This document shows positions 1 through 22,736 of a stretch of 64,000 nt of DNA, in pieces. Numbering within the stretch: the stretch's first letter is position 1; every line of letters starts with the position of its first letter. A program made the translations under genes and the position numbers. The notes under the pieces are model-generated. The model saw only the letters and a list, made by a program, of their open reading frames with translations, was not told the origin of the DNA and did not search any database. This DNA is from Modicisalibacter xianhensis. GTDB lineage: Bacteria > Pseudomonadota > Gammaproteobacteria > Pseudomonadales > Halomonadaceae. Where the stretch lies: assembly GCF_900113605.1 (NCBI RefSeq), contig NZ_FOPY01000003.1:1-64000 (forward strand), written 5' to 3'.

Positions 1-327
1 CGCTCTCTACCCGCCTCGATTGTTTGCGATAACGGGCCGGAGCTGACCAGCAAGGCAATGTTCTTCTGGGCGCGCGAGCGGAAGGTGACGCTGGCCTTCA
101 TCCAGCCGGGCAAGCCGACGCAGAATGCATTCATTGAGAGCTTCAACGGCAAGTTCCGGGACGGCTGCCTCAACCAACACTGGTTCCTGAGCCTGGCGGA
201 TGCACGGCACGAAATCACGCAATGGAGGGCCCACTACAACCATGTCAGACCGCACAGCTCACTGGGTTATTTACCGCCTAGCGTATGCCGAGCAGTGCGC
301 ATGAAGCTGGGATTTCTCACATTGTGA
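1..327 (+). CDS. IS3-family transposase OrfB, C-terminal part
   Basis: The frame is open from base 1 (RSLPASIVCDNGPELTSKAM...) and stops at 325-327. It is the C-terminal half of the DDE integrase core of IS3-family OrfB. The second catalytic Asp is in the CDNG motif and the catalytic Glu is in FIESFNG, followed by the family's conserved YNxxRPHSSLGYLPP tail. The N-terminal part lies outside the window, so it cannot be said whether the element is active. The first ATG in the window (58) is internal and is not a start. The role is cut-and-paste or copy-and-paste transposition of its own element. Confidence 0.85.
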   Translation, partial: RSLPASIVCDNGPELTSKAMFFWARERKVTLAFIQPGKPTQNAFIESFNGKFRDGCLNQHWFLSLADARHEITQWRAHYNHVRPHSSLGYLPPSVCRAVRMKLGFLTL

Positions 328-2014: not shown

Positions 2015-3295
2015 CTATAGCACTCTCACCTTGGGTAACTCTTCCCAGCGCGTACTCCATCGCGGCGTGCGGTTGGCACAGCGCAAATGCCAGGCGGCGC
2101 CGTCTGTTGGCATACCCAGGCGTAGCGTGCCGCGCCCCATCTTCTGGTTCAGCTCATCCATGGTGGCCATGAGGCGCTTGCTGCGTTGTCGGTCAGCGTC
2201 GCTCTGCGGCGTGTCGAGCAGGGAGAGCTGCTGCCGATCGGCGTCGATCAGGTCCAGCAGCATCACGCCGGCTTTCATGTAGGCAAAGCGCTCCAGGAAT
2301 ATCCTGTCCAGAACATAGCTAGCCGCGTGAAGAATCTCCCGACTGTCGTCCGTGGGGCGCTCGAGCTCGACGATCGCGTGAGGGGAGTGCTGTGGCAGGT
2401 CCTGCCTGTGTGGGTTGGTCTTGAGGAACACGAGTACGGCGCGGGCCAGGCTGCCTTGCTGGCGGAGTTTTTCGGCGCCGCGCTGGCCATGCTGGCGAAT
2501 GGCTTCCTGAATCTCGCGGTAGTTGCCGGTCAGCTTGCCGAACGAGCGACTGGTCATGATGCGTTGCCTGGGCTCGTCGAAGTCGTTCATCTCGATGCAT
2601 GGGGTACCTTGCAGCTCGAGCACGGTACGCTCGAGCGTCACGCTGAACTTGCGGCGGATGCGCTTGGGATCGGTGCTGCGCAGGTCCCAGGCGGAACGAA
2701 TCCCCATGGTGTGCAGGCGCTCGACGAGACGCCGCCCCACGCCCCAGATATCACCCAGCTCGATTCGTTGCAGAAGGCCCTTGGTGGCGGTGCTGTCGCG
2801 GTCCAGTACGCACACGCCGCCATAGCCAGGAATCTTCTTTGCTGCGCGATTGGCGAGCTTGGATAGCGTGCGGGTGGGGGCGACGCCGATGGATACGGGA
2901 ATGCTCGTGTACTGGCGCACTTGCTGTCGGAGCTTGCGGCAGTGCTCAGTGAGCGCGGCGGTCTCGAAGCCATCGAAGCGCACGAACATTTCATCAATGG
3001 AGTAGGGCTCGACCTGGGGCGCGAATTCCTCGAGCACGGCCTGCACCCGTGACGACATATCTCCGTACAGTTCGTAGTTGCTGGAGAGCAGCACAAGGCC
3101 ACGCTGGCGGATTCGATGCTTGAGCTGGAACGCCGGCGTGCCCATCTCGACGCCCAATTGCTTGATCTCGGCCGAACGGGCGATCACGCAGCCATCGTTG
3201 TTCGAAAGCACGCCGACAGGGCGACCTTCAAGATCCGGCCGGAACGCGCGCTCGCAGCTCACGTAGAAGTTGTTGCAGTCAACGAGTCCGATCAT
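2015..3295 (-). CDS. umuC: DNA polymerase V catalytic subunit UmuC
   Basis: This 426-residue Y-family translesion polymerase inserts nucleotides opposite damaged bases together with cleaved UmuD. It begins MIGLVDCNNFYVSCERAF, giving the first metal-binding Asp at residue 6. The second acidic motif SIDEMFV is near residue 100. Helix-hairpin-helix and little-finger regions follow, and RQQLSLLD near residue 355 resembles a beta-clamp binding motif. Length matches E. coli UmuC (422). It starts 3 nt after the umuD stop, so the two are translated as one operon from the LexA-controlled promoter upstream of umuD. Confidence 0.95.
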   Translation of the reverse strand: MIGLVDCNNFYVSCERAFRPDLEGRPVGVLSNNDGCVIARSAEIKQLGVEMGTPAFQLKHRIRQRGLVLLSSNYELYGDMSSRVQAVLEEFAPQVEPYSIDEMFVRFDGFETAALTEHCRKLRQQVRQYTSIPVSIGVAPTRTLSKLANRAAKKIPGYGGVCVLDRDSTATKGLLQRIELGDIWGVGRRLVERLHTMGIRSAWDLRSTDPKRIRRKFSVTLERTVLELQGTPCIEMNDFDEPRQRIMTSRSFGKLTGNYREIQEAIRQHGQRGAEKLRQQGSLARAVLVFLKTNPHRQDLPQHSPHAIVELERPTDDSREILHAASYVLDRIFLERFAYMKAGVMLLDLIDADRQQLSLLDTPQSDADRQRSKRLMATMDELNQKMGRGTLRLGMPTDGAAWHLRCANRTPRWSTRWEELPKVRVL

Positions 3296-3298
3296 GGC

Positions 3299-3739
3299 TT
3301 ACACCGGAAACTCATGGATGACGGAGCGGACTACGCCCCACACCTGACATTCCGTATCGCCGAGCGGGATGGGGGCATAGCGGGTGTTGCCGGAGCAGAG
3401 ATAAGGGCGGTTGCCGAGCAGCTCGTAGCGTTTGACGATCACTTCACCATCGACCAAGGCGGCCAGAATGTGCCCAGGGCGTGGATCAATGGAGCGATCC
3501 ACCACCAGGATGTCGCCAGGGTAGATACCATAGGCCAGCATGCTGTCGCCATCATCGACCACCTGCATGAAGAATGTCGCACTGGGCCGCTTGATAAGGC
3601 GCTCGTTGAGATCCAGCGTGCGGCCCTCGTAGTCCTGCGCGGGGCTAGGGAAGCCCGACAGGCCGGCCCGGATCAGCGTCTCGGGGAATGGCAGGGCAAG
3701 CGGCGGCGGTGCGGCTTCGGCGGGGATGAGTGGCGACAT
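3299..3739 (-). CDS. umuD: UmuD, LexA-like self-cleaving subunit of Pol V
   Basis: ATG 3739 is chosen because AGGAGG stands about 9 nt upstream and the LexA box lies just beyond it. The 146-residue S24-family protein cleaves itself after RecA-ssDNA contact and then activates UmuC. The FPSPAQDY block aligns with E. coli FPSPAADY, which puts the cleavage site at Ser28-Gly29 where E. coli has Cys-Gly. The catalytic Ser is in GDSM (about residue 66) and the Lys is in VIVKRYEL (about residue 103). Both are intact, unlike in the divergent S24-like gene next door. Confidence 0.93.
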   Translation of the reverse strand: MSPLIPAEAAPPPLALPFPETLIRAGLSGFPSPAQDYEGRTLDLNERLIKRPSATFFMQVVDDGDSMLAYGIYPGDILVVDRSIDPRPGHILAALVDGEVIVKRYELLGNRPYLCSGNTRYAPIPLGDTECQVWGVVRSVIHEFPV

Positions 3740-3758
3740 AGTGACTTCCCTCCTATTG

Positions 3759-3774
3759 CTGGTTGGATATACAG
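3759..3774 (-). promoter_or_regulatory. LexA (SOS) box for umuDC
   Basis: On the minus strand the sequence is CTGTATATCCAACCAG, which fits the CTG-N10-CAG LexA consensus with a TATAT-rich left half. It lies about 20 nt upstream of the umuD start, the usual place for an SOS operator. It also sits in the shared intergenic region of the divergent S24-like gene at 3888. Confidence 0.85.
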
Positions 3775-3887
3775 TATTTAACGAATCCCCGTGTTCAGGC
3801 AAACGCTAATGTACGATTTGCCGCCAACGCTGGGCCGGGGGCGGTAGGTAAAACCAAGAAAAACAGGAAGTTGCAGGGAAGAGAAAA

Positions 3888-4303: not shown

Positions 4304-4960
4304 ATGTGCGGCCGTTTTGCGCTTTACAGTGCCTATCCGAAATTCTCGACTAAGGCAGGCGTCCCCAACGTCGAGGAGGCGCCGACACCGCGCTTCAACG
4401 TGCCGCCTGGCACTTGGATCACGGCAATACGGCAGGTGTCCGGCGACGAGCCGCCGCGCATGGACGAGTTGTGGTGGGGCTACAAGCCGAAGTGGGCGAA
4501 GGGCAAGGCCAGCCAGCCAATCAATGCCAGGGTCGAGACGGTGGCCACCTCCGGTTACTTCAAGTCGGCTTTCCAGAAGCATCGCTGCTTGGTCCCGGCG
4601 GATGGTTGGTATGAGTGGGACAAGAGCACTACGCCCAAGCAACCGCACTTCATCTGCCGCGAGGATCGCGAGCCGATCTTCTTTGCGGGGATTTACACCG
4701 AGCGCGAAGACGGCTCACTGGGTTGTGCGATCATCACCGAGCCGGCGCGAGGCTCTGCTCAAGACGTACACGACCGCATGCCGCTGATCCTGGACGACGA
4801 GAGCCTGGAGCCGTGGCTAGACCCGGACCTGACAGATCGGGAAATCTTGCGCAATGTGGTGCATCACATCGATGCCAAGTTGATTACGCACTGGCCCGTC
4901 AGCGCCAAGGTGAATCGGCCGAGTGGGGCGGGTGATGAGTCACTGATCAATCCGGCGTAA
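4304..4960 (+). CDS. yedK: SRAP domain protein (YedK/HMCES-like), copy 1
   Basis: SRAP proteins crosslink through their N-terminal cysteine to abasic sites in single-stranded DNA and so shield them. ATG 4304 is required because Cys2 must become the N-terminus; AGGAG lies 6 nt upstream. The 218-residue protein has MCGRF, FNVPPGTW (active Asn), WGYKPKW, INARVETV, DGWYEWDK (active Glu) and VHDRMPLIL (active His). All expected residues are present. It follows the UmuD-like gene by 62 nt, consistent with a damage-response neighbourhood. A close paralogue of identical length lies at 7244-7900, and the two share homologous 3' flanks. Confidence 0.93.
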   Translation: MCGRFALYSAYPKFSTKAGVPNVEEAPTPRFNVPPGTWITAIRQVSGDEPPRMDELWWGYKPKWAKGKASQPINARVETVATSGYFKSAFQKHRCLVPADGWYEWDKSTTPKQPHFICREDREPIFFAGIYTEREDGSLGCAIITEPARGSAQDVHDRMPLILDDESLEPWLDPDLTDREILRNVVHHIDAKLITHWPVSAKVNRPSGAGDESLINPA

Positions 4961-4984
4961 CAGAAGACACGAAGCGGAAAATTA

Positions 4985-5125
4985 ACGTCACAAAACGGCA
5001 TTTTTCAAAGGTTGGGCTGTGGTCTACTTTGCTACCGTGCTTTTGTGACGTCTTCCTTACTCGTGCCTGGCTTTAGGTTTCGTCCTTCTTTACGTCACAG
5101 CCCCGGCATACCGGCCGGGGCCATT
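4985..5125 (+). ncRNA. Candidate structured RNA element E1
   Basis: First of three copies of a folded element. The outer stem is GTGACGT (5045-5051) with ACGTCAC (5092-5098). Inside are the conserved string CTTCCTTACTCGT and a small hairpin CCT/AGG. Outside is a GC-rich hairpin, GCCCCGGC/GCCGGGGC (5100-5121), placed like a weak terminator. An upstream segment ACGTCACAAAA (4985-4995) is perfectly complementary to TTTTGTGACGT (5041-5051), so the 5' strand of the outer stem has two mutually exclusive partners. It starts 85 nt after the SRAP stop and ends 54 nt before the GacA-like box of the next small RNA. Whether it is a 3' UTR element or an independent RNA is not known. Confidence 0.5.
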
Positions 5126-5175
5126 TCCTACTTGGCTTAATGCCTACGCTTTCATGGCCTATGTCGCACAGGACG

Positions 5176-5193
5176 TGTCATATATCTCTTACA
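5176..5193 (+). promoter_or_regulatory. GacA-box-like upstream activating sequence A
   Basis: TGTCAT-ATATCT-CTTACA fits the Gac/Rsm upstream activating sequence TGTAAG-N6-CTTACA, with a perfect right half and a degenerate left half. It ends 43 nt before the -10-like hexamer TACAGT (5237-5242). The same 43-44 nt spacing is found for all four small RNAs in this cluster. Confidence 0.65.
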
Positions 5194-5248
5194 AAGCCAT
5201 CTAACCCGGGTTAAGCCACCTGCCGTGCATAGCAGGTACAGTGTCTTA

Positions 5249-5390
5249 CGTAGACATGGACATGTCGCGATGGAACCCGGGCAAGGATGCCTGATGAACC
5301 AAGGATGCATGAGCAGGATGGCTCATGAGTGGGCAGCAGGAAGCACCACGCCACGCAAGCCCGGCCTTCACAGGCCGGGCTTTATTCGTT
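5249..5390 (+). ncRNA. CsrB/RsmZ-like small RNA A
   Basis: A non-coding stretch of about 140 nt with six GGA motifs. Three are clearly in hairpin loops: GACAT-GGAC-ATGTC (5253-5266), CGGGC-AAGGAT-GCCTG (5278-5293) and CATGAGC-AGGATG-GCTCATG (5308-5327). It ends in the terminator GCCCGGCCT-TCAC-AGGCCGGGC followed by a T-rich tail (5359-5390). Loops presenting AGGA are the binding signature for CsrA/RsmA, which such RNAs sequester. The 5' end is estimated from a -10-like TACAGT at 5237. It is one of four such RNAs here. Confidence 0.78.
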
Positions 5391-5644
5391 TTGGAGCCTC
5401 GATTCATCCTCTTGTCCCTTCGCTTCGCACCGAAACAGCTGTCATTCAGACAATATTCTACTTCGATCGCCAGCCAGGAAGGACCCGGCTAAGCTGCATC
5501 GTAAGCAAGCTGATGGGGCTTGAGTGGAAGAGCAAGCCCAGCATGACGTTACGTATTAGCGTCAGCTTGTATCGCAACCCCTCGTCTGCTGCTAGCTTTT
5601 ATTTCGTTATGCCCTGTCTCACACTCAAGGAGATGATCCCTGCC

Positions 5645-6364
5645 GTGACTGTACGATTATTCAGCAAACTGGATCATTTCATGTCGTTGACGGAGGAAGA
5701 AAAGCGCTCCATAGAGCAGGCGGCTACCATCCGCAGGACCTACCAGAAAGGTGAAGATGTCATTAGTGAGGGCCAGCGACCGGATTTCGTGCATTTGATC
5801 GAGGAAGGCTGGGCCTGTCGCTACAAGCGGCTGGATAATGGCGACGATCACATCATGGCGTATCTCATTCCGGGCGATCTATGCGATGTGCACGTCACGA
5901 TCCTCAATGAGATGGACCACTCCATACGGGCACTGACGCCGCTCAAGATCGCCTTGCTGCCCGCCCATGAAATCAGCCTCCTGATGGAAAGCAGTAGTCG
6001 CATCGCCCGCGCCTTGTTCTGGTCGACCCTTGTCGACGAAGCCACGCTACGCGAATGGCTGGTCAATGCCGGTAGCCGATCCGCTGACAGGCGCCTGGCG
6101 CACGTCTTTTGCGAGATGCTGTTGCGCTCGCGTATTGCCGGGCTGACTGATGACAACAGCTTTGATTTGCCACTGACCCAGGTTGAGTTGGCCAATTCGA
6201 TGGGGCTGACCCCTATCCATGTCAACCGGACGCTGCAGAAACTGCGGGCCGAGAATCTGATCGCCTTCAATAATAAGCGCATGCGGATTCTGGACTGGGA
6301 GAGCCTCAAGGAGTTCTCGGGGTTCAAGCCCAACTACCTGCACTGCGAGAATGTCACCTGCTAG
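5645..6364 (+). CDS. Crp/Fnr-family transcriptional regulator
   Basis: The 239-residue product has a cNMP-binding-like barrel (HLIEEGWACRYKRLDNGDD, LIPGDLCDVHV) and a C-terminal winged HTH (LTQVELANSMGLTPIHVNRTLQKLR, about residues 178-202). The HVNRTLQ recognition-helix motif marks a known subgroup of Crp-type regulators; no Fnr cysteine cluster is seen. The frame is open further upstream, but that part overlaps small RNA A. GTG 5645 matches the N-terminus of the related protein at 1055-1819. It has AAGGAG 12 nt upstream; ATG 5633 or 5609 are alternatives. It is flanked on both sides by CsrB-like RNAs. Ligand unknown. Confidence 0.8.
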   Translation: MTVRLFSKLDHFMSLTEEEKRSIEQAATIRRTYQKGEDVISEGQRPDFVHLIEEGWACRYKRLDNGDDHIMAYLIPGDLCDVHVTILNEMDHSIRALTPLKIALLPAHEISLLMESSSRIARALFWSTLVDEATLREWLVNAGSRSADRRLAHVFCEMLLRSRIAGLTDDNSFDLPLTQVELANSMGLTPIHVNRTLQKLRAENLIAFNNKRMRILDWESLKEFSGFKPNYLHCENVTC

Positions 6365-6383
6365 CTCTCTGGCTTACTGTCTT

Positions 6384-6401
6384 TGTCATGAATCTCCTAC
6401 G
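6384..6401 (+). promoter_or_regulatory. GacA-box-like upstream activating sequence B
   Basis: TGTCAT-GAATCT-CCTACG has the same TGTCAT left half as box A and a CYTACR right half. It lies just after the Crp-like gene stop and ends 44 nt before GATAGT (6446-6451), the -10-like hexamer of small RNA B. Confidence 0.6.
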
Positions 6402-6457
6402 TTAGCGGCTAATTTATGTTTACAAACTTACTGTTTATTGCATGAGATAGTGTCCTT

Positions 6458-6597
6458 GCTGTAGCGCAAGGATGCTCACCAAGGAAGACAGGGCAGGGAA
6501 GGCCCAGGAAACCAGGGAAGCACGAACAGGAGGTTCGTGAAGCACGCAAGGAAATGCAGTGGTAAAAGAGCCCGGCCTCACGGTCGGGCTCTTTTCG
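6458..6597 (+). ncRNA. CsrB/RsmZ-like small RNA B
   Basis: About 140 nt with seven GGA motifs. The best displayed are CACGAAC-AGGAG-GTTCGTG (6521-6539), a perfect 7-bp stem with AGGAG in the loop; GGGC-AGGGAAG-GCCC (6491-6505); and GCA-AGGAAA-TGC (6546-6557). Others are in single-stranded linkers (aaggaag, aggaa, aggga). It ends in the terminator AGAGCCCGGCC/GGTCGGGCTCT followed by TTTTCG (6567-6597). It lacks an E element upstream, unlike A, C and D, and follows the Crp-like gene instead. Confidence 0.78.
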
Positions 6598-6798
6598 TTA
6601 CCACGGATATATTGTCGAAGTGGTGTAACAAGCACTTACTGTGGTACCCAACACGTTGTATAGTTTGGTGGAAAGATTGTTCAATAAAAACAAAGTATCA
6701 TTAGTAAATGCCATTGTTTTTAAGCAATTTCACCATTAACTACATTGTTTAACTAACGTACGGCTAGTGTTCACGCTCTGTTTTGCTATTGTAGACAG
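6598..6798. other. AT-rich intergenic stretch
   Basis: No gene is seen in about 200 nt. The sequence is AT-rich, with runs such as CAATAAAAACAAAG and TTTTTAAGCAATTT. It may hold the promoter of element E2, but I cannot define boxes with confidence. Confidence 0.4.
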
Positions 6799-6873
6799 GT
6801 GACGTCTTTATTACTCGTCCCCTGATGGGTCGTCTTTCCGCCACGTCACTGCCCCGGCGCGCGACGGGGCCTT
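6799..6873 (+). ncRNA. Candidate structured RNA element E2
   Basis: Second copy. The outer stem GTGACGT (6799-6805)/ACGTCAC (6843-6849) is identical to E1. The loop holds CTTTATTACTCGT, then an inner hairpin built on CCC/GGG around CTGAT where E1 uses CCT/AGG, then TCGTC. A GC-rich hairpin GCCCCG/CGGGGC (6851-6870) follows directly. Unlike E1 and E3 it does not follow an SRAP gene. It ends 65 nt before GacA-like box C. Preserved pairing with different bases in the inner hairpin argues for selection on RNA structure. Confidence 0.5.
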
Positions 6874-6935
6874 CCCTCACCCCTTGGCTTCGCTAATTCA
6901 GCCTTGTGGCCCTGTCGCGGGGGTTACAAGCGAGC

Positions 6936-6953
6936 CATGGCATATCTCCTACG
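6936..6953 (+). promoter_or_regulatory. Degenerate GacA-box-like sequence C
   Basis: CATGGC-ATATCT-CCTACG shares the ATATCT spacer with box A and the CCTACG half with box B, but its left half is poor. It ends 43 nt before TATGCA (6997-7002), the -10-like hexamer of small RNA C. It is identified mainly by position and by alignment to the other three boxes. Confidence 0.42.
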
Positions 6954-7008
6954 CAATGCGTGGTCGATCACTGATGCAAATCCAGCTTGTCGTGGGTATG
7001 CAGAAGGG

Positions 7009-7168
7009 CGGTTTGAATGAGACAGTGCGCACGTCGAACGGGAAGCCGACACAGGGAAGACCGGGCATGGAGGCTCGTGAACTCAAGGAAACATGGACAG
7101 GACGTTCATGAAGAGTACGCAAGGAGGCGGCGTTTGAAGGCCTGACCCACGCGGTCAGGCCTTCTTCG
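7009..7168 (+). ncRNA. CsrB/RsmZ-like small RNA C
   Basis: About 160 nt with seven GGA motifs. Hairpins with GGA in the loop are CGGGC-ATGGAG-GCTCG (7062-7077), CATGGAC-AGGAC-GTTCATG (7092-7110) and CGC-AAGGAG-GCG (7118-7129). Further GGA motifs are at 7041, 7055 and 7087. The terminator is AAGGCCTGACC-CACGC-GGTCAGGCCTT (7137-7163) followed by CTTCGTTTT. It ends about 75 nt upstream of the second SRAP gene. The weak GacA-like box makes its regulation less certain than for A, B and D. Confidence 0.72.
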
Positions 7169-7243
7169 TTTTGCAGCAATGCTTATCCCTTGCTGACCGG
7201 CATCTGCCTGTCCATGCTTGGACGAAATCCATGGGATAGCGCA

Positions 7244-7900
7244 ATGTGTGGACGCTTTGCCGCTTACGATGAGAAGGCCTACACCGAGTTTCTCACTCGT
7301 CTTGGCGTTACGGCTGATGATCATGCCATGGTGCCGAGGTTCAATGTGGCGCCCGGCACGTGGTGTCAGGTAGTGCGTCGTGTCGTGGCTGACACACCCC
7401 CGCAGGTCAAGGAGATGTGGTGGGGGTATCGCCCTGCATGGGGCAAGGCCAGCCAACCCATCAACGCTCGGGTCGAGACGGTCGCGACGTCAGGGTATTT
7501 CAAGTCTGCCTTTCAGAAACGCCGTTGCCTGGTGTATGCCGATGGCTGGTATGAATGGGACAAGGCCACGACTCCCAAGCAGCCCTACTTCCTTTGTCGC
7601 AAGGATCGCAAGCCGCTGCTGCTGGCAGGGATCTACACCGAGCGTGACGATGGCAAGCTGGGATTCGCCATCATTACCGAGCCTGCGCGTGGTGCAGCGC
7701 GCGAGATACACGATCGGATGCCTGTATTGCTCGACGAGGAGAGAATCGAGTCTTGGCTGGATCCGGACCTGACCGACCGCGAGGTGCTTCGCAATGTCGT
7801 AAAGCATTTGAAGGCAGACCAGATCACATACTGGCCTGTGAGCACGCGCATCAATCGGCCAAGTCAGGAAGGCGACGAGTCATTGATCAACCCAGCGTGA
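7244..7900 (+). CDS. yedK: SRAP domain protein (YedK/HMCES-like), copy 2
   Basis: This 218-residue protein is a close paralogue of the one at 4304-4960, with the same length, the same closing DESLINPA and long shared blocks (QPINARVETVATSGYFKSAF). The catalytic set is intact: Cys2 in MCGRF, Asn in FNVAPGTW, Glu in WYEWDK and His in IHDRMPVLL. ATG 7244 is chosen because Cys2 must be exposed, although upstream in-frame starts exist. Its predicted role is shielding abasic sites in single-stranded DNA. Its 3' flank is homologous to that of copy 1 and leads into E3, so the duplicated unit includes the downstream RNA genes. Confidence 0.92.
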   Translation: MCGRFAAYDEKAYTEFLTRLGVTADDHAMVPRFNVAPGTWCQVVRRVVADTPPQVKEMWWGYRPAWGKASQPINARVETVATSGYFKSAFQKRRCLVYADGWYEWDKATTPKQPYFLCRKDRKPLLLAGIYTERDDGKLGFAIITEPARGAAREIHDRMPVLLDEERIESWLDPDLTDREVLRNVVKHLKADQITYWPVSTRINRPSQEGDESLINPA

Positions 7901-7924
7901 CAGGATGACACGCTCTGGAGAATT

Positions 7925-8070
7925 AGGGACACAATCTTGGCTTTTTCATGCGCTCGAATGAGGGCATAGCCGTGATAGCATGCTTGTATGACGTCTTCGT
8001 TAAGCGTGTCCCTCCGGACTCGCCCTTGCTCCTCGTCATGCAGATAAGCCCCGGCCATGTCGGGGCTTTT
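7925..8070 (+). ncRNA. Candidate structured RNA element E3 with terminator
   Basis: Third copy, 88 nt after the SRAP copy 2 stop. The outer stem is ATGACG (7988-7993)/CGTCAT (8034-8039). The loop holds TCTTCGTTAAGCGT and an inner hairpin GTCC-CTCC-GGAC. A strong terminator AAGCCCCG-N7-CGGGGCTT with TTTT follows (8046-8070). As in E1 there is an alternative long-range pairing: AGGGACAC (7925-7932) complements GTGTCCCT (8006-8013) inside the loop. The flank between the SRAP stop and E3 aligns with that of E1 (AATTA, CACAA, GGC, TTTTTCA in the same order). Confidence 0.52.
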
Positions 8071-8122
8071 GCTCCCATCTGCTGTAGAATCCTTCCGATT
8101 AGCGTCTTTTGCCTACAAGTTT

Positions 8123-8140
8123 TGTAAGAAATCACTTACA
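8123..8140 (+). promoter_or_regulatory. Perfect GacA-box upstream activating sequence D
   Basis: TGTAAG-AAATCA-CTTACA matches the Gac/Rsm consensus TGTAAG-N6-CTTACA exactly. It ends 43 nt before CATAGT (8184-8189), the -10-like hexamer of small RNA D. This perfect site anchors the interpretation of the three more degenerate boxes. Confidence 0.82.
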
Positions 8141-8159
8141 AGTGTTCATAACTCTGTTT

Positions 8160-8178
8160 AATTTGCAGGGTGCAAATT
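8160..8178. promoter_or_regulatory. Palindrome between GacA box D and its -10
   Basis: AATTTGCA-GGG-TGCAAATT is a perfect 8-bp inverted repeat with a 3-nt centre, placed where a -35 element would be expected for small RNA D. The other three small RNA promoters have no equivalent. A second regulator acting on copy D is a reasonable inference. Confidence 0.45.
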
Positions 8179-8195
8179 TGTGTCATAGTTCATCC

Positions 8196-8341
8196 GTGAG
8201 CATGGAGCGGTCCTAAGGAACCCGAGCAAGGACGCTCGACGAACCACGGATGCTCGAGAAGGATTCTCGTAGATGAACTGCAGGATGCAGGGCGCGATGA
8301 GTGCCACGAAGAAGCCCGGCCGGCCAAGTCGGGCTTCTTTT
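8196..8341 (+). ncRNA. CsrB/RsmZ-like small RNA D
   Basis: About 145 nt with six GGA motifs. Three are in textbook CsrA-type hairpins: CGAGC-AAGGAC-GCTCG (8223-8238), CGAGA-AGGAT-TCTCG (8255-8269) and CTGC-AGGAT-GCAG (8278-8290). The terminator GAAGCCCGGC/GTCGGGCTTC (8311-8337) is preceded by AA and followed by TTTT. It probably also stops the convergent gene ending at 8356. With a perfect GacA box upstream, this is the best supported Rsm-type RNA in the window. Confidence 0.85.
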
Positions 8342-8355
8342 ATGCCTGGTTGCGC

Positions 8356-8859
8356 TCAGTCCGGCGTGTGGCTTCGCTTGCAGCCATTGCCTGGCGGAGT
8401 CGCTTGCTGCTCGGATTCGACAATGACGCGATTGATGGCGGCCTGGGGAGACTCATTCTGCCGCATGAGCCGCTTGAGTGCGGCCTGGGTCTCTGGCGCC
8501 AATGTTACGGCGATGCGCTTGGCTCTGTTGTCCCGAGGCGTGGGGGAAGCGTTGCCAAGCCACACGGCGATCTCGGCATGCGCTTGTTTGCCGATACCCG
8601 GAATTTTGCCGGGACCAAGCAGGCCGCGTCGGTCAGCGTCTGCAATGGCGTCTCGAGTTTCCAGGCCATTGGCGAGAAGGCACCGGGCGACGCGCGGCGT
8701 CAGTCCGTCGAGCCACTGGCGGCAATGCGCGTTCTGCTGCTGCCAATGAGTAATCCAAGTGCGTATCGTCTCGGGGGCCAGCCCGAACTCCTCGCTGATG
8801 GCTTCTTGGCTCATGCCCTGAGGCGCTAGCCCGGCTGAGCGTTGGCTACCTTCGTCCAT
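8356..8859 (-). CDS. Protein with HTH and RNA polymerase alpha-CTD-like domains
   Basis: The 167-residue product has an N-terminal HTH (about residues 16-40, MSQEAISEEFGLAPETIRTW). A segment of about 50 residues follows (LTPRVARCLLANGLETRD..., ending PGIGKQAHAEIAVWL) that closely resembles the C-terminal domain of the RNA polymerase alpha subunit. The C-terminus (about 112-150, KRIAVTLAPETQAALKRLM) has the look of a ribbon-helix-helix or an alternative DNA-binding tail. Three DNA-binding-like modules in one small protein is unusual. No ribosome binding site is clear; Met16 (8814) is an alternative start. It is convergent with small RNA D. Function unknown; a transcription regulator is the likeliest guess. 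Confidence 0.6.
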   Translation of the reverse strand: MDEGSQRSAGLAPQGMSQEAISEEFGLAPETIRTWITHWQQQNAHCRQWLDGLTPRVARCLLANGLETRDAIADADRRGLLGPGKIPGIGKQAHAEIAVWLGNASPTPRDNRAKRIAVTLAPETQAALKRLMRQNESPQAAINRVIVESEQQATPPGNGCKRSHTPD

Positions 8860-19901: not shown

Positions 19902-22736
19902 ATGCAAGAAGGCATAATGGAGTTGATGTGGCGCTCCTCGCACGTGAGTGGCGGCAACGCTCACTACGTCGAAGCGCTGTACGAGCAATACCTCGTCGAT
20001 CCCAATGAAGTTCCGGATGAATGGCGTAACTATTTCGATCAGTTACCGCGCCCGGAAGGCAGTCCCTCCTACGATACCCCCCTCAGTCCGATCCGAGACC
20101 AGTTCTACCAGTTGGCACGTAACCGTCGCACCGCTCAGGGCACGGCCGCTGTCGACAGTGGCGAGAACAAGAAGCAGGTCAAGGTCCTCCAGCTGATCAA
20201 CGCCTATCGATTCCGTGGCCACCAGAAGGCCGACATCGATCCGCTCGATCTGCGCAAACCGGTACCGGTGCCGGACCTGGACCTGTCCTTCCACCAGTTG
20301 TCGAAGGCCGACATGGACAGCGAGTTCCAGACCGGCTCCTTCTTCCTGGGCAAGGACAAGGCACCGCTGAAGGAAATCGTCGAAGCGCTGGAGCAGACCT
20401 ACTGCCGCAGCATCGGCTGTGAGTTCATGCACATCGTCGACACCGAAGAGAAGCGCTGGCTGCAACAGCGGTTCGAATCGGTGCGCTCGAAGCCGAAGTA
20501 CGGCAACGAGGTCCGCAAGCATGTGCTCGAACGACTGACCGCCGCCGAGGGCCTGGAGAGCTACCTGGCCTCCAAGTACCCCGGCACCAAGCGTTTCGGT
20601 CTCGAAGGGGGCGAAAGCTTCATCCCGATGATGGACGAGGTCATCCAGCGTGCCGGCGGCTACGGCACCAAGGAAGTCGTCATCGGCATGGCGCACCGCG
20701 GCCGCCTCAACCTGCTGGTCAACATCCTTGGCAAGAGCCCGTCAGAGCTGATCGACGAGTTCGATGGCAAGAAGGTCATTACCAAAGGCTCGGGCGACGT
20801 CAAGTACCACCAAGGCTTCAGCTCCAACGTCATGACGCCGGGCGGCGAAGTCCACCTGGCGCTGGCCTTCAACCCGTCGCACCTGGAAATCGTGGCACCG
20901 GTGGTCGAAGGCTCGGTACGTGCCCGTCAGGATCGCCGCGACGACACCGACGGTGACAAGGTACTGCCGATCAATGTCCACGGCGACGCGGCCTTCGCCG
21001 GCCAGGGCGTGGTCATGGAAACCTTCCAGATGTCGCAGACCCGTGCCTACAAGACCGGTGGCACGCTCCACGTCGTGATCAACAACCAGGTCGGTTTCAC
21101 CACCTCGCATCCGCAGGACACGCGCTCCACCGAGTACTGCACCGATATCGCCAAGATGGTTCAGGCGCCGATCTTCCACGTCAATGGCGACGACCCGGAT
21201 GCCGTGCTGCATGCTGCGCAAGTGGCCATCGACTACCGCCAGCAGTTCCACAAGGACGTCGTCATCGATCTGGTCTGCTACCGGCGTCGCGGTCACAACG
21301 AGGCCGACGAGCCGTCCGGCACCCAGCCGATGATGTACCAGAAGATCAAGTCGCACAAAAGCTCCCGCGAGCTTTACGCGGCGCGCCTGGTCGAGGAGGG
21401 CGTGCTCTCCGAGGACGACGCCAAGGCACTGGTCGAGCAGTACCGCGAGGACCTGCTGGCGGGTAACCACGTCGCCAACGCGCTGGTCAAGCAGCCCAAC
21501 ACCGAGCTGTTCGTCGACTGGAACCCGTACCTCGGCCACGAGTGGAGCGGCGACTTCGACACCTCGTTCGACATGAAGCGCATGCAGCAACTGGCGACGC
21601 GCATGTGCGAAATTCCCGACGGTGTCCAGGTCCAGCGTCAGGTTGCCAAGATCTACGAGGACCGTCGCAAGATGCAGGCCGGTGGCATGGCGCTCAACTG
21701 GGGCTTCGCCGAAACCCTGGCCTATGCCACGCTGCTCGACGAAGGCCACCCGATCCGCATCACGGGTCAGGACTCTGGCCGCGGCACCTTCTCGCACCGC
21801 CACGCCGTGGTGCACAACCAGAAGGACGGCACCACCTACGTGCCGCTCGAGCACATCCGTGAAGGGCAGCCGCGTTTCACCATTCGCGACTCCTACCTCT
21901 CCGAAGAGGCGGTGCTGGCCTTCGAGTATGGCTACGCTACCACCATGCCCAACGCGCTGATCGTCTGGGAAGCGCAGTTCGGCGACTTCTTCAACGGCGC
22001 TCAGGTCGTGGTCGACCAGTTCATTTCCTCGGGTGAGTCCAAGTGGGGCCGCCTGTGCGGGTTGACCATGCTGCTGCCGCACGGCTACGAAGGGCAGGGG
22101 CCGGAGCACTCCTCCGCGCGCCTCGAGCGCTTCTTGCAGTTGTGTGCCGAGCACAACATGCAGGTCTGCGTGCCGACCACGCCGGCGCAGATCTTCCATC
22201 TCCTGCGTCGTCAGGTGATTCGCCCGCTGCGCAAGCCGCTGGTGATCATGTCGCCGAAGAGCCTGCTGCGCCATAAGGAAGCGACTTCTACGCTGGAAGA
22301 GCTGGCCAACGGTCGCTTCCAGATGGTACTGGAAGACCAGGGCAAGCTGGACGCCAGCAAGGTCAAGCGTGTCGTGCTGTGCGCCGGCAAGGTCTATTAC
22401 GACCTGGCGGCCTATCGCGCGGAGAACGAGCGCGAAGATACGGCGGTCCTGCGCGTCGAACAGCTCTACCCCTTCCCGAAGGACGAGCTCTTCGAGGCGA
22501 TCAAGGACTACACCAACCTGGAGCAGGTGGTGTGGTGTCAGGAAGAGCCGCTGAACCAGGGCGCCTGGTATCAGAGCCAGCACCATATGCGTGTCGTCGC
22601 GGACATGTTCAAGGAAGGCCTGGGCCGCGAACTCAAGTTCGCCGGTCGTCCGGCCTCGGCAGCACCCGCTGCGGGCTACATGTCCGTCCATGTCGAACAG
22701 CAGCGCCAACTGGTGGAAGACGCCTTCAACGCCTGA
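19902..22736 (+). CDS. sucA: 2-oxoglutarate dehydrogenase E1 component
   Basis: The 944-residue thiamine-diphosphate enzyme decarboxylates 2-oxoglutarate and passes the succinyl group to SucB. ATG 19902 gives the family N-terminus MQEGIMELMWRSSHVSGGN; upstream codons overlap the hairpin region. The ThDP site (GMAHRGRLNLLVN near residue 265, GDAAFAGQGVVMET) and the substrate-binding His in the NPSHLE and FSHRHAV blocks are present. Length matches E. coli SucA (933). It is part of the operon with sucB and lpd. Confidence 0.95.
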   Translation: MQEGIMELMWRSSHVSGGNAHYVEALYEQYLVDPNEVPDEWRNYFDQLPRPEGSPSYDTPLSPIRDQFYQLARNRRTAQGTAAVDSGENKKQVKVLQLINAYRFRGHQKADIDPLDLRKPVPVPDLDLSFHQLSKADMDSEFQTGSFFLGKDKAPLKEIVEALEQTYCRSIGCEFMHIVDTEEKRWLQQRFESVRSKPKYGNEVRKHVLERLTAAEGLESYLASKYPGTKRFGLEGGESFIPMMDEVIQRAGGYGTKEVVIGMAHRGRLNLLVNILGKSPSELIDEFDGKKVITKGSGDVKYHQGFSSNVMTPGGEVHLALAFNPSHLEIVAPVVEGSVRARQDRRDDTDGDKVLPINVHGDAAFAGQGVVMETFQMSQTRAYKTGGTLHVVINNQVGFTTSHPQDTRSTEYCTDIAKMVQAPIFHVNGDDPDAVLHAAQVAIDYRQQFHKDVVIDLVCYRRRGHNEADEPSGTQPMMYQKIKSHKSSRELYAARLVEEGVLSEDDAKALVEQYREDLLAGNHVANALVKQPNTELFVDWNPYLGHEWSGDFDTSFDMKRMQQLATRMCEIPDGVQVQRQVAKIYEDRRKMQAGGMALNWGFAETLAYATLLDEGHPIRITGQDSGRGTFSHRHAVVHNQKDGTTYVPLEHIREGQPRFTIRDSYLSEEAVLAFEYGYATTMPNALIVWEAQFGDFFNGAQVVVDQFISSGESKWGRLCGLTMLLPHGYEGQGPEHSSARLERFLQLCAEHNMQVCVPTTPAQIFHLLRRQVIRPLRKPLVIMSPKSLLRHKEATSTLEELANGRFQMVLEDQGKLDASKVKRVVLCAGKVYYDLAAYRAENEREDTAVLRVEQLYPFPKDELFEAIKDYTNLEQVVWCQEEPLNQGAWYQSQHHMRVVADMFKEGLGRELKFAGRPASAAPAAGYMSVHVEQQRQLVEDAFNA

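Follow-up and report, generated by a model that had tools for sequence, protein, structure and literature searches.

Four clustered RNA genes of the predicted Csr/Rsm sponge type in Modicisalibacter belong to a highly multiplied Halomonadaceae family

RESULTS

The window analyzed here is a 64,000-nucleotide (nt) stretch of DNA, bases 1 to 64000 of contig C30 in the 4.36-Mb genome (G000) of Modicisalibacter xianhensis, a member of the Halomonadaceae. On its plus strand lie four small RNA genes, designated A1 to A4, that are very probably genuine RNA genes of the Gac/Rsm (Csr) sponge kind, to judge from their sequences. The larger finding is a highly multiplied Halomonadaceae sponge family, in which a second promoter element and a companion RNA, designated B, also came to light.

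A selected GGA hairpin in the A RNAs

A1 occupies positions 5248 to 5389, with a central GGA hairpin at about 5308 to 5327 and a terminator at 5357 to 5385; it scored 128.3 bits with a covariance model designated R1, contains 6 GGA motifs, and has a fold z score of -2.97. The corresponding features are, for A2 (6460 to 6598), a central hairpin at about 6521 to 6539, a terminator at 6568 to 6594, 113.4 bits, 7 GGA motifs, and a z score of -3.96; for A3 (7032 to 7169), a hairpin at about 7092 to 7110, a terminator at about 7136 to 7164, 97.1 bits, 7 GGA motifs, and a z score of -2.70; and for A4 (8194 to 8343), a hairpin at about 8253 to 8271, a terminator at 8312 to 8339, 98.8 bits, 6 GGA motifs, and a z score of -2.99. 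R1 was built from 23 sequences, 8 of them from this genome and all four window genes among them, so the scores of A1 to A4 are not independent of the model. GGA motifs were counted inside the model bounds. At the 3' end of all four genes is an intrinsic-terminator hairpin with a T-rich stretch after it. An earlier note on this DNA had placed here four stretches with 6 to 7 GGA motifs, each ending in an intrinsic terminator, and both features were borne out; its four positions hold as well, except that the model starts A3 23 bases after the 7009 given there.

RNAalifold, run on a plain MAFFT alignment of the 23 seeds that was not fitted to the model, predicted 16 base pairs, 11 of them with double changes. 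A larger set comprised 76 members, the R1 matches at E values of ≤1e-18 from 63 chosen loci. In the alignment of these members, which was fitted to R1 and so favors its structure, all six pairs of the central hairpin showed double compensatory changes with 98.5% of cells paired, and the terminator helix was 96.8% paired. Together the two helices held 140 double-change cells, versus 25.4 in shuffles that leave relatedness in place, and none of 500 shuffles reached as high. Sliding the 3' partner by one base lowered the pairing of the whole structure from 97.4% to 50 to 54%. The GGA column in the hairpin loop was conserved in 73 of the 76 members, and a second GGA column, immediately 5' of the hairpin, was conserved in every one. 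Drift in the stem around a constant GGA loop is what marks a protein-binding hairpin under selection. The conservation analysis for which the earlier note had called thus showed selection on the GGA hairpin, in agreement with its claim of a shared, selected architecture.

Two conserved elements upstream of the A genes

GacA boxes precede three of the four genes in the window. That of A1, TGTCATATATCTCTTACA (5176 to 5193, plus strand), has one mismatch to the pattern TGTMAGNNATCTCTTACA. That of A4, TGTAAGAAATCACTTACA (8123 to 8140, plus strand), is the perfect TGTAAG-N6-CTTACA which the earlier note had ascribed to one of its stretches, and likewise has one mismatch to the longer pattern. A2 has a weaker box, TGTCATGAATCTCCTACG (6384 to 6401, plus strand), with three mismatches. 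With up to three mismatches, TGTMAGNNATCTCTTACA occurs at just three places in the 64 kb, all of them ahead of these A genes; shuffled windows gave a mean of 0.29 matches, and 0 of 100 reached the 5 observed on both strands. In the whole genome there are five places with at most one mismatch, four of which sit 71 to 74 nt upstream of an A RNA (A1, A4, a copy on contig C25, and a long RNA on C27). The fifth, the box-like palindrome TGTGAGATATCTCTTACA at G000:C30:64283-64300, lies just beyond the window and has no R1 match downstream. With up to three mismatches allowed, the genome held 41 box matches versus 16 for the reversed pattern, so the weaker matches elsewhere are largely chance. As a side observation, a GacA-box-like site with two mismatches at G000:C45:40943-40960 lies shortly upstream of a frame that resembles, by eye, another SRAP gene.

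Across the family set, a box matching at least 12 of 16 positions was found between -60 and -100 at 40 of 76 loci, versus 2 of 76 in a control interval. Its 5' end lies at -71 to -76 in 27 loci and at -91 to -97 in 13, positions about two helical turns apart; all promoter distances are counted from the R1 model start rather than from a mapped transcription start. A second conserved element is a palindrome with the consensus TAACCYRGGTTA, centered about 40 nt upstream of the RNA start, with its 5' end mostly at -44 to -48 (42 loci). It was found between -75 and -38 at 48 of 76 loci, versus 4 of 76 in a control interval, and occurs at a nearly fixed distance also at loci that have no GacA box; 26 loci have both elements. 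In the window, A1 and A4 carry both, the palindrome being TAACCCGGGTTA before A1 (5202 to 5213, plus strand) and the imperfect TAACTCTGTTTA, with 7 of 8 fixed bases, before A4 (8149 to 8160, plus strand). A2 has its weak box only. Genome-wide, TAACCNNGGTTA is found in exact form twice, once upstream of A1. We know of no element like this palindrome in published rsm promoters. The palindrome, TTAAC-N4-GTTAA, has the form seen in operators of the Crp/Fnr family, the PrfA box among them.

Copy number and origin of the A family

R1 matched the genome 13 times at 62 bits or more, which makes 12 places, two of the matches overlapping in the one long RNA on C27. Eight of the 12 places are seeds of R1; the nonseeds are those on C19, C16 (219799), C27, and C21 (4052). 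Five weaker places (E values of 1.0e-9 to 8.7e-7), with 4 to 7 GGA motifs in the matched stretch, bring the total to 17. Left out of this count were C25:52173, C28:150425, and C28:148164 (E value of 6e-5), the last of which resembles a GGA-rich, terminator-bearing RNA. Two of the family RNAs are long and CsrB-like: the C27 RNA (G000:C27:19498-19761), with 264 nt and 14 GGA motifs, and one on contig C7 of G005 (L038:83 onward), with a run of 10 GGA motifs. A selenocysteine tRNA (L091:564-655) lies about 0.9 kb from a weaker A-like RNA at G000:C30:124633.

Copy number varies widely among the 14 genomes of the genus. At E values of ≤1e-9, R1 gave 13 matches in G001, 18 in G005 (M. luteus), and 0 to 7 in the other eleven; these genus totals, like those for the family, are matches under stricter filters rather than curated loci. 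A match was found in 78 of 151 sampled Halomonadaceae genomes and, in an order-level sample, in 7 of 244 genomes, all 7 of them Halomonadaceae. The A family as modeled is seen only in Halomonadaceae, R1 being a model that would miss more distant Csr RNAs. The earlier note had called the tight cluster unusual, but it does not stand alone, the genome having 12 strong places and clusters recurring in other genera: four members in 1.6 kb in G127 (99, 77, 60, and 41 bits), three of at least 50 bits in 1.5 kb in G161, and three in 1.4 kb in G058.

A1 to A4 are 73 to 79% identical to one another. In a tree built from few columns, with 28 of 73 inner branches drawn open, A1 falls in a starred clade with copies of G001 and G005 and the C25 copy of its own genome, and A4 falls in another with copies of G005, G001, and a different genus (G040). 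A2 and A3 took no resolved position, staying apart from A1, from A4, and from one another. The view that these are old duplicates is upheld by the identities and by the separate supported clades, each with copies from other species; a recent tandem duplication of A1 to A4 finds no support in the tree. The window contains the unit SRAP-B-A twice, and the DNA of the two SRAP genes is about 71% identical over a stretch extending into B, so an old segmental duplication probably contributed to the cluster. Copies so numerous and dispersed, in a window whose left end holds a frame that looks transposase-like, might be passengers of a mobile repeat element. We consider this very improbable, given that the cluster copies are only 73 to 79% identical, that their promoter elements keep fixed distances, and that A1 and A4 have close relatives in other species.

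A companion RNA, B

Interleaved with A1 to A4 are three copies of a second structured RNA, B, that the earlier note had missed. B1 (5045 to 5129, plus strand) has its own terminator and a fold z score of -4.93, and B3 (7988 to 8074, plus strand) a z score of -5.02; the fold of B2 (6799 to 6878, plus strand) is not unusual, with a z score of -1.18 and 28 of 200 shuffles as good. With R2, a second model made from 10 seeds taken beside A loci, they scored 68.5 (B1), 62.8 (B2), and 72.4 (B3) bits, all three being seeds. A fourth copy lies at G000:C19:334403-334494. The RNA is about 85 nt long and consists of an outer stem with a UA/CG exchange, a wide internal loop, an inner hairpin, and a terminator. 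Among 33 matches (31 distinct), 58 double-change cells were counted versus 18 in shuffles, none of 500 shuffles reaching that total. Counted by pairs with double changes, however, B does not exceed the shuffles, 52 of 500 of which did as well, so covariation support is weaker for B than for A. No Rfam family scored above its gathering cutoff for B.

All four R2 matches in the genome at E values of ≤1e-4, three of them seeds, have an A gene no more than 160 nt away. Elsewhere B stands between A copies (G161, G127, and G085) or, in other genera, alone. When the 20 best B loci were examined, an R1 match of at least 40 bits lay within 1.5 kb of 10 of them, only a weak one of two (L205, 22 bits; L204, 17 bits), and none of eight, so the idea that B always accompanies A was discarded; with the seed loci L186, L187, L188, and L191 excluded, 6 of 16 have an A match of at least 40 bits within that distance. 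Locus L201, which looks like coding sequence, is a probable false match. A role for B as an antisense to the GGA motif was also dropped on inspection, the bases that would face GGA not being conserved. Our guess is that B is a separate regulatory RNA that shares the A islands.

Evidence against a sponge identity, and two rival explanations

Several observations weigh against reading the A RNAs as working sponges. The number of GGA motifs is, taken alone, near chance and weak evidence for sponge identity: dinucleotide-preserving shuffles gave P values of 0.15, 0.05, 0.23, and 0.29 for A1, A2, A3, and A4, respectively, and 6 or more GGA motifs in 125 nt occur 29 times on the two strands of the window, A1 to A4 included. 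As shuffles often reach the same count, GGA density was dropped as proof of sponge genes. Relatedness among the 76 loci robs the counts over them of independence, and the patterns for the box and the palindrome came in part from the same sequences in which they were counted. Neither promoter element is present at 14 of the 76 loci, nor at A3, where the best box match is 9 of 16 at a different spacing. The strong place C21:4052 retains just 3 GGA motifs.

The Rfam search for Csr/Rsm families that the earlier note had proposed likewise went against it. None of CsrB, CsrC, RsmX, or RsmZ reached gathering in the window or in 13 related loci, and over positions 4900 to 8450 none was listed at E values of ≤10, with one overlapping lower-scoring clan match left out of the list. 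For RsmY (RF00195), whose cutoff is 57 bits, A2 scored best at 21.8 bits (E value of 0.022) and A1 scored 14.8 bits, with A3 and A4 unlisted at E values of ≤10. The top permissive match in the region, BTnc231, lies on the minus strand over the A2 terminator and scored 27.4 bits against a cutoff of 80.4; it was taken as chance.

A GGA number near the dinucleotide expectation is what one would see if these were ordinary base-pairing small RNAs, or a structural repeat, in which GGA is incidental. This explanation is improbable, however, because the loop GGA persists despite the compensated changes in its stem and because GacA boxes lie upstream. A less remote alternative, though still an unlikely one, accepts descent from Csr sponges and holds that a number of the copies, beginning with A3, are silent or in decay, leaving only one or two of the cluster at work. 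The 3 GGA motifs left at C21:4052 suggest that some copies may be decaying, and A3 is without both promoter elements; yet A3 retains 7 GGA motifs, a compensated hairpin (stem CATGGAC/GTTCATG), and a strong terminator.

Neighboring genes

The order on the plus strand is SRAP gene 1, B1, A1, a Crp/Fnr-family regulator gene, A2, B2, A3, SRAP gene 2, B3, and A4. The SRAP genes (PF02586) occupy 4304 to 4960 and 7244 to 7900, and the regulator gene (PF00027 and PF13545), between A1 and A2, occupies 5633 to 6364. The Crp-like interleaving, which had been considered worthy of remark, did not recur in other named species: at 18 loci of Crp relatives there, searched up to 10 kb on each side, there was no R1 match (R1 may miss distant members), and the Crp family was rejected as a general sponge partner. 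Within the genus, A matches do adjoin matches to the window's Crp gene on C31 of G000, C1 and C11 of G005, and C19 of G001. To the left of the cluster are a second Crp/Fnr-family gene and an umuC-like/Peptidase S24 (umuD-like) pair, in minus-strand frames at 1055 to 1852, 2015 to 3295, and 3299 to 3802. The short frame at the left end of the window (58 to 327, plus strand) resembles, on visual reading, the last part of an IS3-type transposase. A plasmid origin was rejected; four plasmid records matched, each under the Crp-like gene only.

CsrA and GacA partners

There are two csrA genes in the window's genome and three in both G001 and G005; elsewhere in the genus, each of the eleven remaining genomes carries one. 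In G000, G001, and G005 the extra csrA genes point away from an adjoining A copy: csrA at C28:327578 with A at 327896 (locus L031, G000:C28:327578-328041), csrA at C23:225923 and 226518 with A at 226839 in G001 (L035), and csrA at C12:21226 and 21856 with A at 20917 in G005 (L036). These A copies group together in the tree with modest support (85/55). Within the genus, A matches are also most numerous in G000, G001, and G005 (13, 13, and 18), a coincidence that may reflect one historical event. A steady ratio of csrA to sponges is no general rule: csrA is single in 143 of the 151 family genomes, while A matches reach 11 in G136, which has one csrA. A GacA-like response regulator (PF00072 and PF00196) is encoded directly upstream of uvrC in the window's genome.

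DISCUSSION

A close comparison is with RsmX, RsmY, and RsmZ of Pseudomonas, which, as described in part of one account, are 110 to 150 nt long with several GGA motifs, a terminator, and a GacA upstream sequence, and of which a tandem pair is known (PMC7911923). The set described here differs in having at least 12 places in one genome, four of them in 3.1 kb, an additional palindrome near -40, and B RNAs in between, and in reaching no Rfam gathering cutoff. The statement in the earlier note that such RNAs normally occur as two to four scattered genes does not span the whole known range: passages in published accounts give 8 to 9 Rsm RNAs for Azotobacter vinelandii (PMC7366521, PMC11330419), 7 for P. 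syringae (PMC7366521), and a tandem rsmX-1/rsmX-2 pair for P. brassicacearum (PMC7911923). The A. vinelandii RNAs, in the same passages, are likewise a multiplied set under GacA with RsmA, fewer in number than the 12 strong places here.

CsrB and CsrC of Escherichia coli act by the same mode of CsrA sequestration that we propose for the A RNAs. The same is proposed, in a section of the report on them, for Pf1 to Pf3 of Pseudoalteromonas fuliginea, which are far richer in GGA (21 motifs in Pf2) (PMC11882849); in our genome only the C27 RNA approaches them. Our searches of an open library turned up no account of Csr/Rsm RNAs from Halomonadaceae, and a passage of a 2020 review gives those of Halomonas anticariensis as unknown (PMC7366521).

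By analogy with the known Gac/Csr pathway, the A RNAs would be transcribed, controlled by GacA, bound by CsrA, and effective through their dosage. Phosphorylated GacA, under GacS/GacA signaling, would switch on A1 and A4, and probably A2, and A3 would be driven by other means or be weak. At a length of about 140 nt, each RNA would offer CsrA several GGA sites, the most constrained one in the conserved hairpin loop, and the binding of CsrA would free its mRNA targets. The family would have multiplied by old local duplication, such as that of SRAP-B-A, and by dispersal, and the many copies would raise the sponge dosage. Because the promoters of the copies differ in their mixes of elements, more than one signal may feed one CsrA pool. 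A more speculative reading, and one less likely than not, is a many-sponge Csr system of the Halomonadaceae with more than one input, in which a GacA box near -72 or -94 is joined by TTAAC-N4-GTTAA near -40 as a possible seat for a second activator, for which the cluster offers a Crp/Fnr-type gene, and in which B forms another family of regulatory RNAs, as yet undescribed and often found alongside the sponges.

The at least 12 candidate CsrA sponges in one genome are above the numbers that we found reported for other bacteria. Halomonads serve as production hosts, a use in which control of carbon flow by CsrA would be important. The family makes it testable whether many sponges amount to redundant dosage or to separate inputs to one CsrA pool, and the 0 to 18 R1 matches across 14 genomes of a single genus form a natural series for that question.

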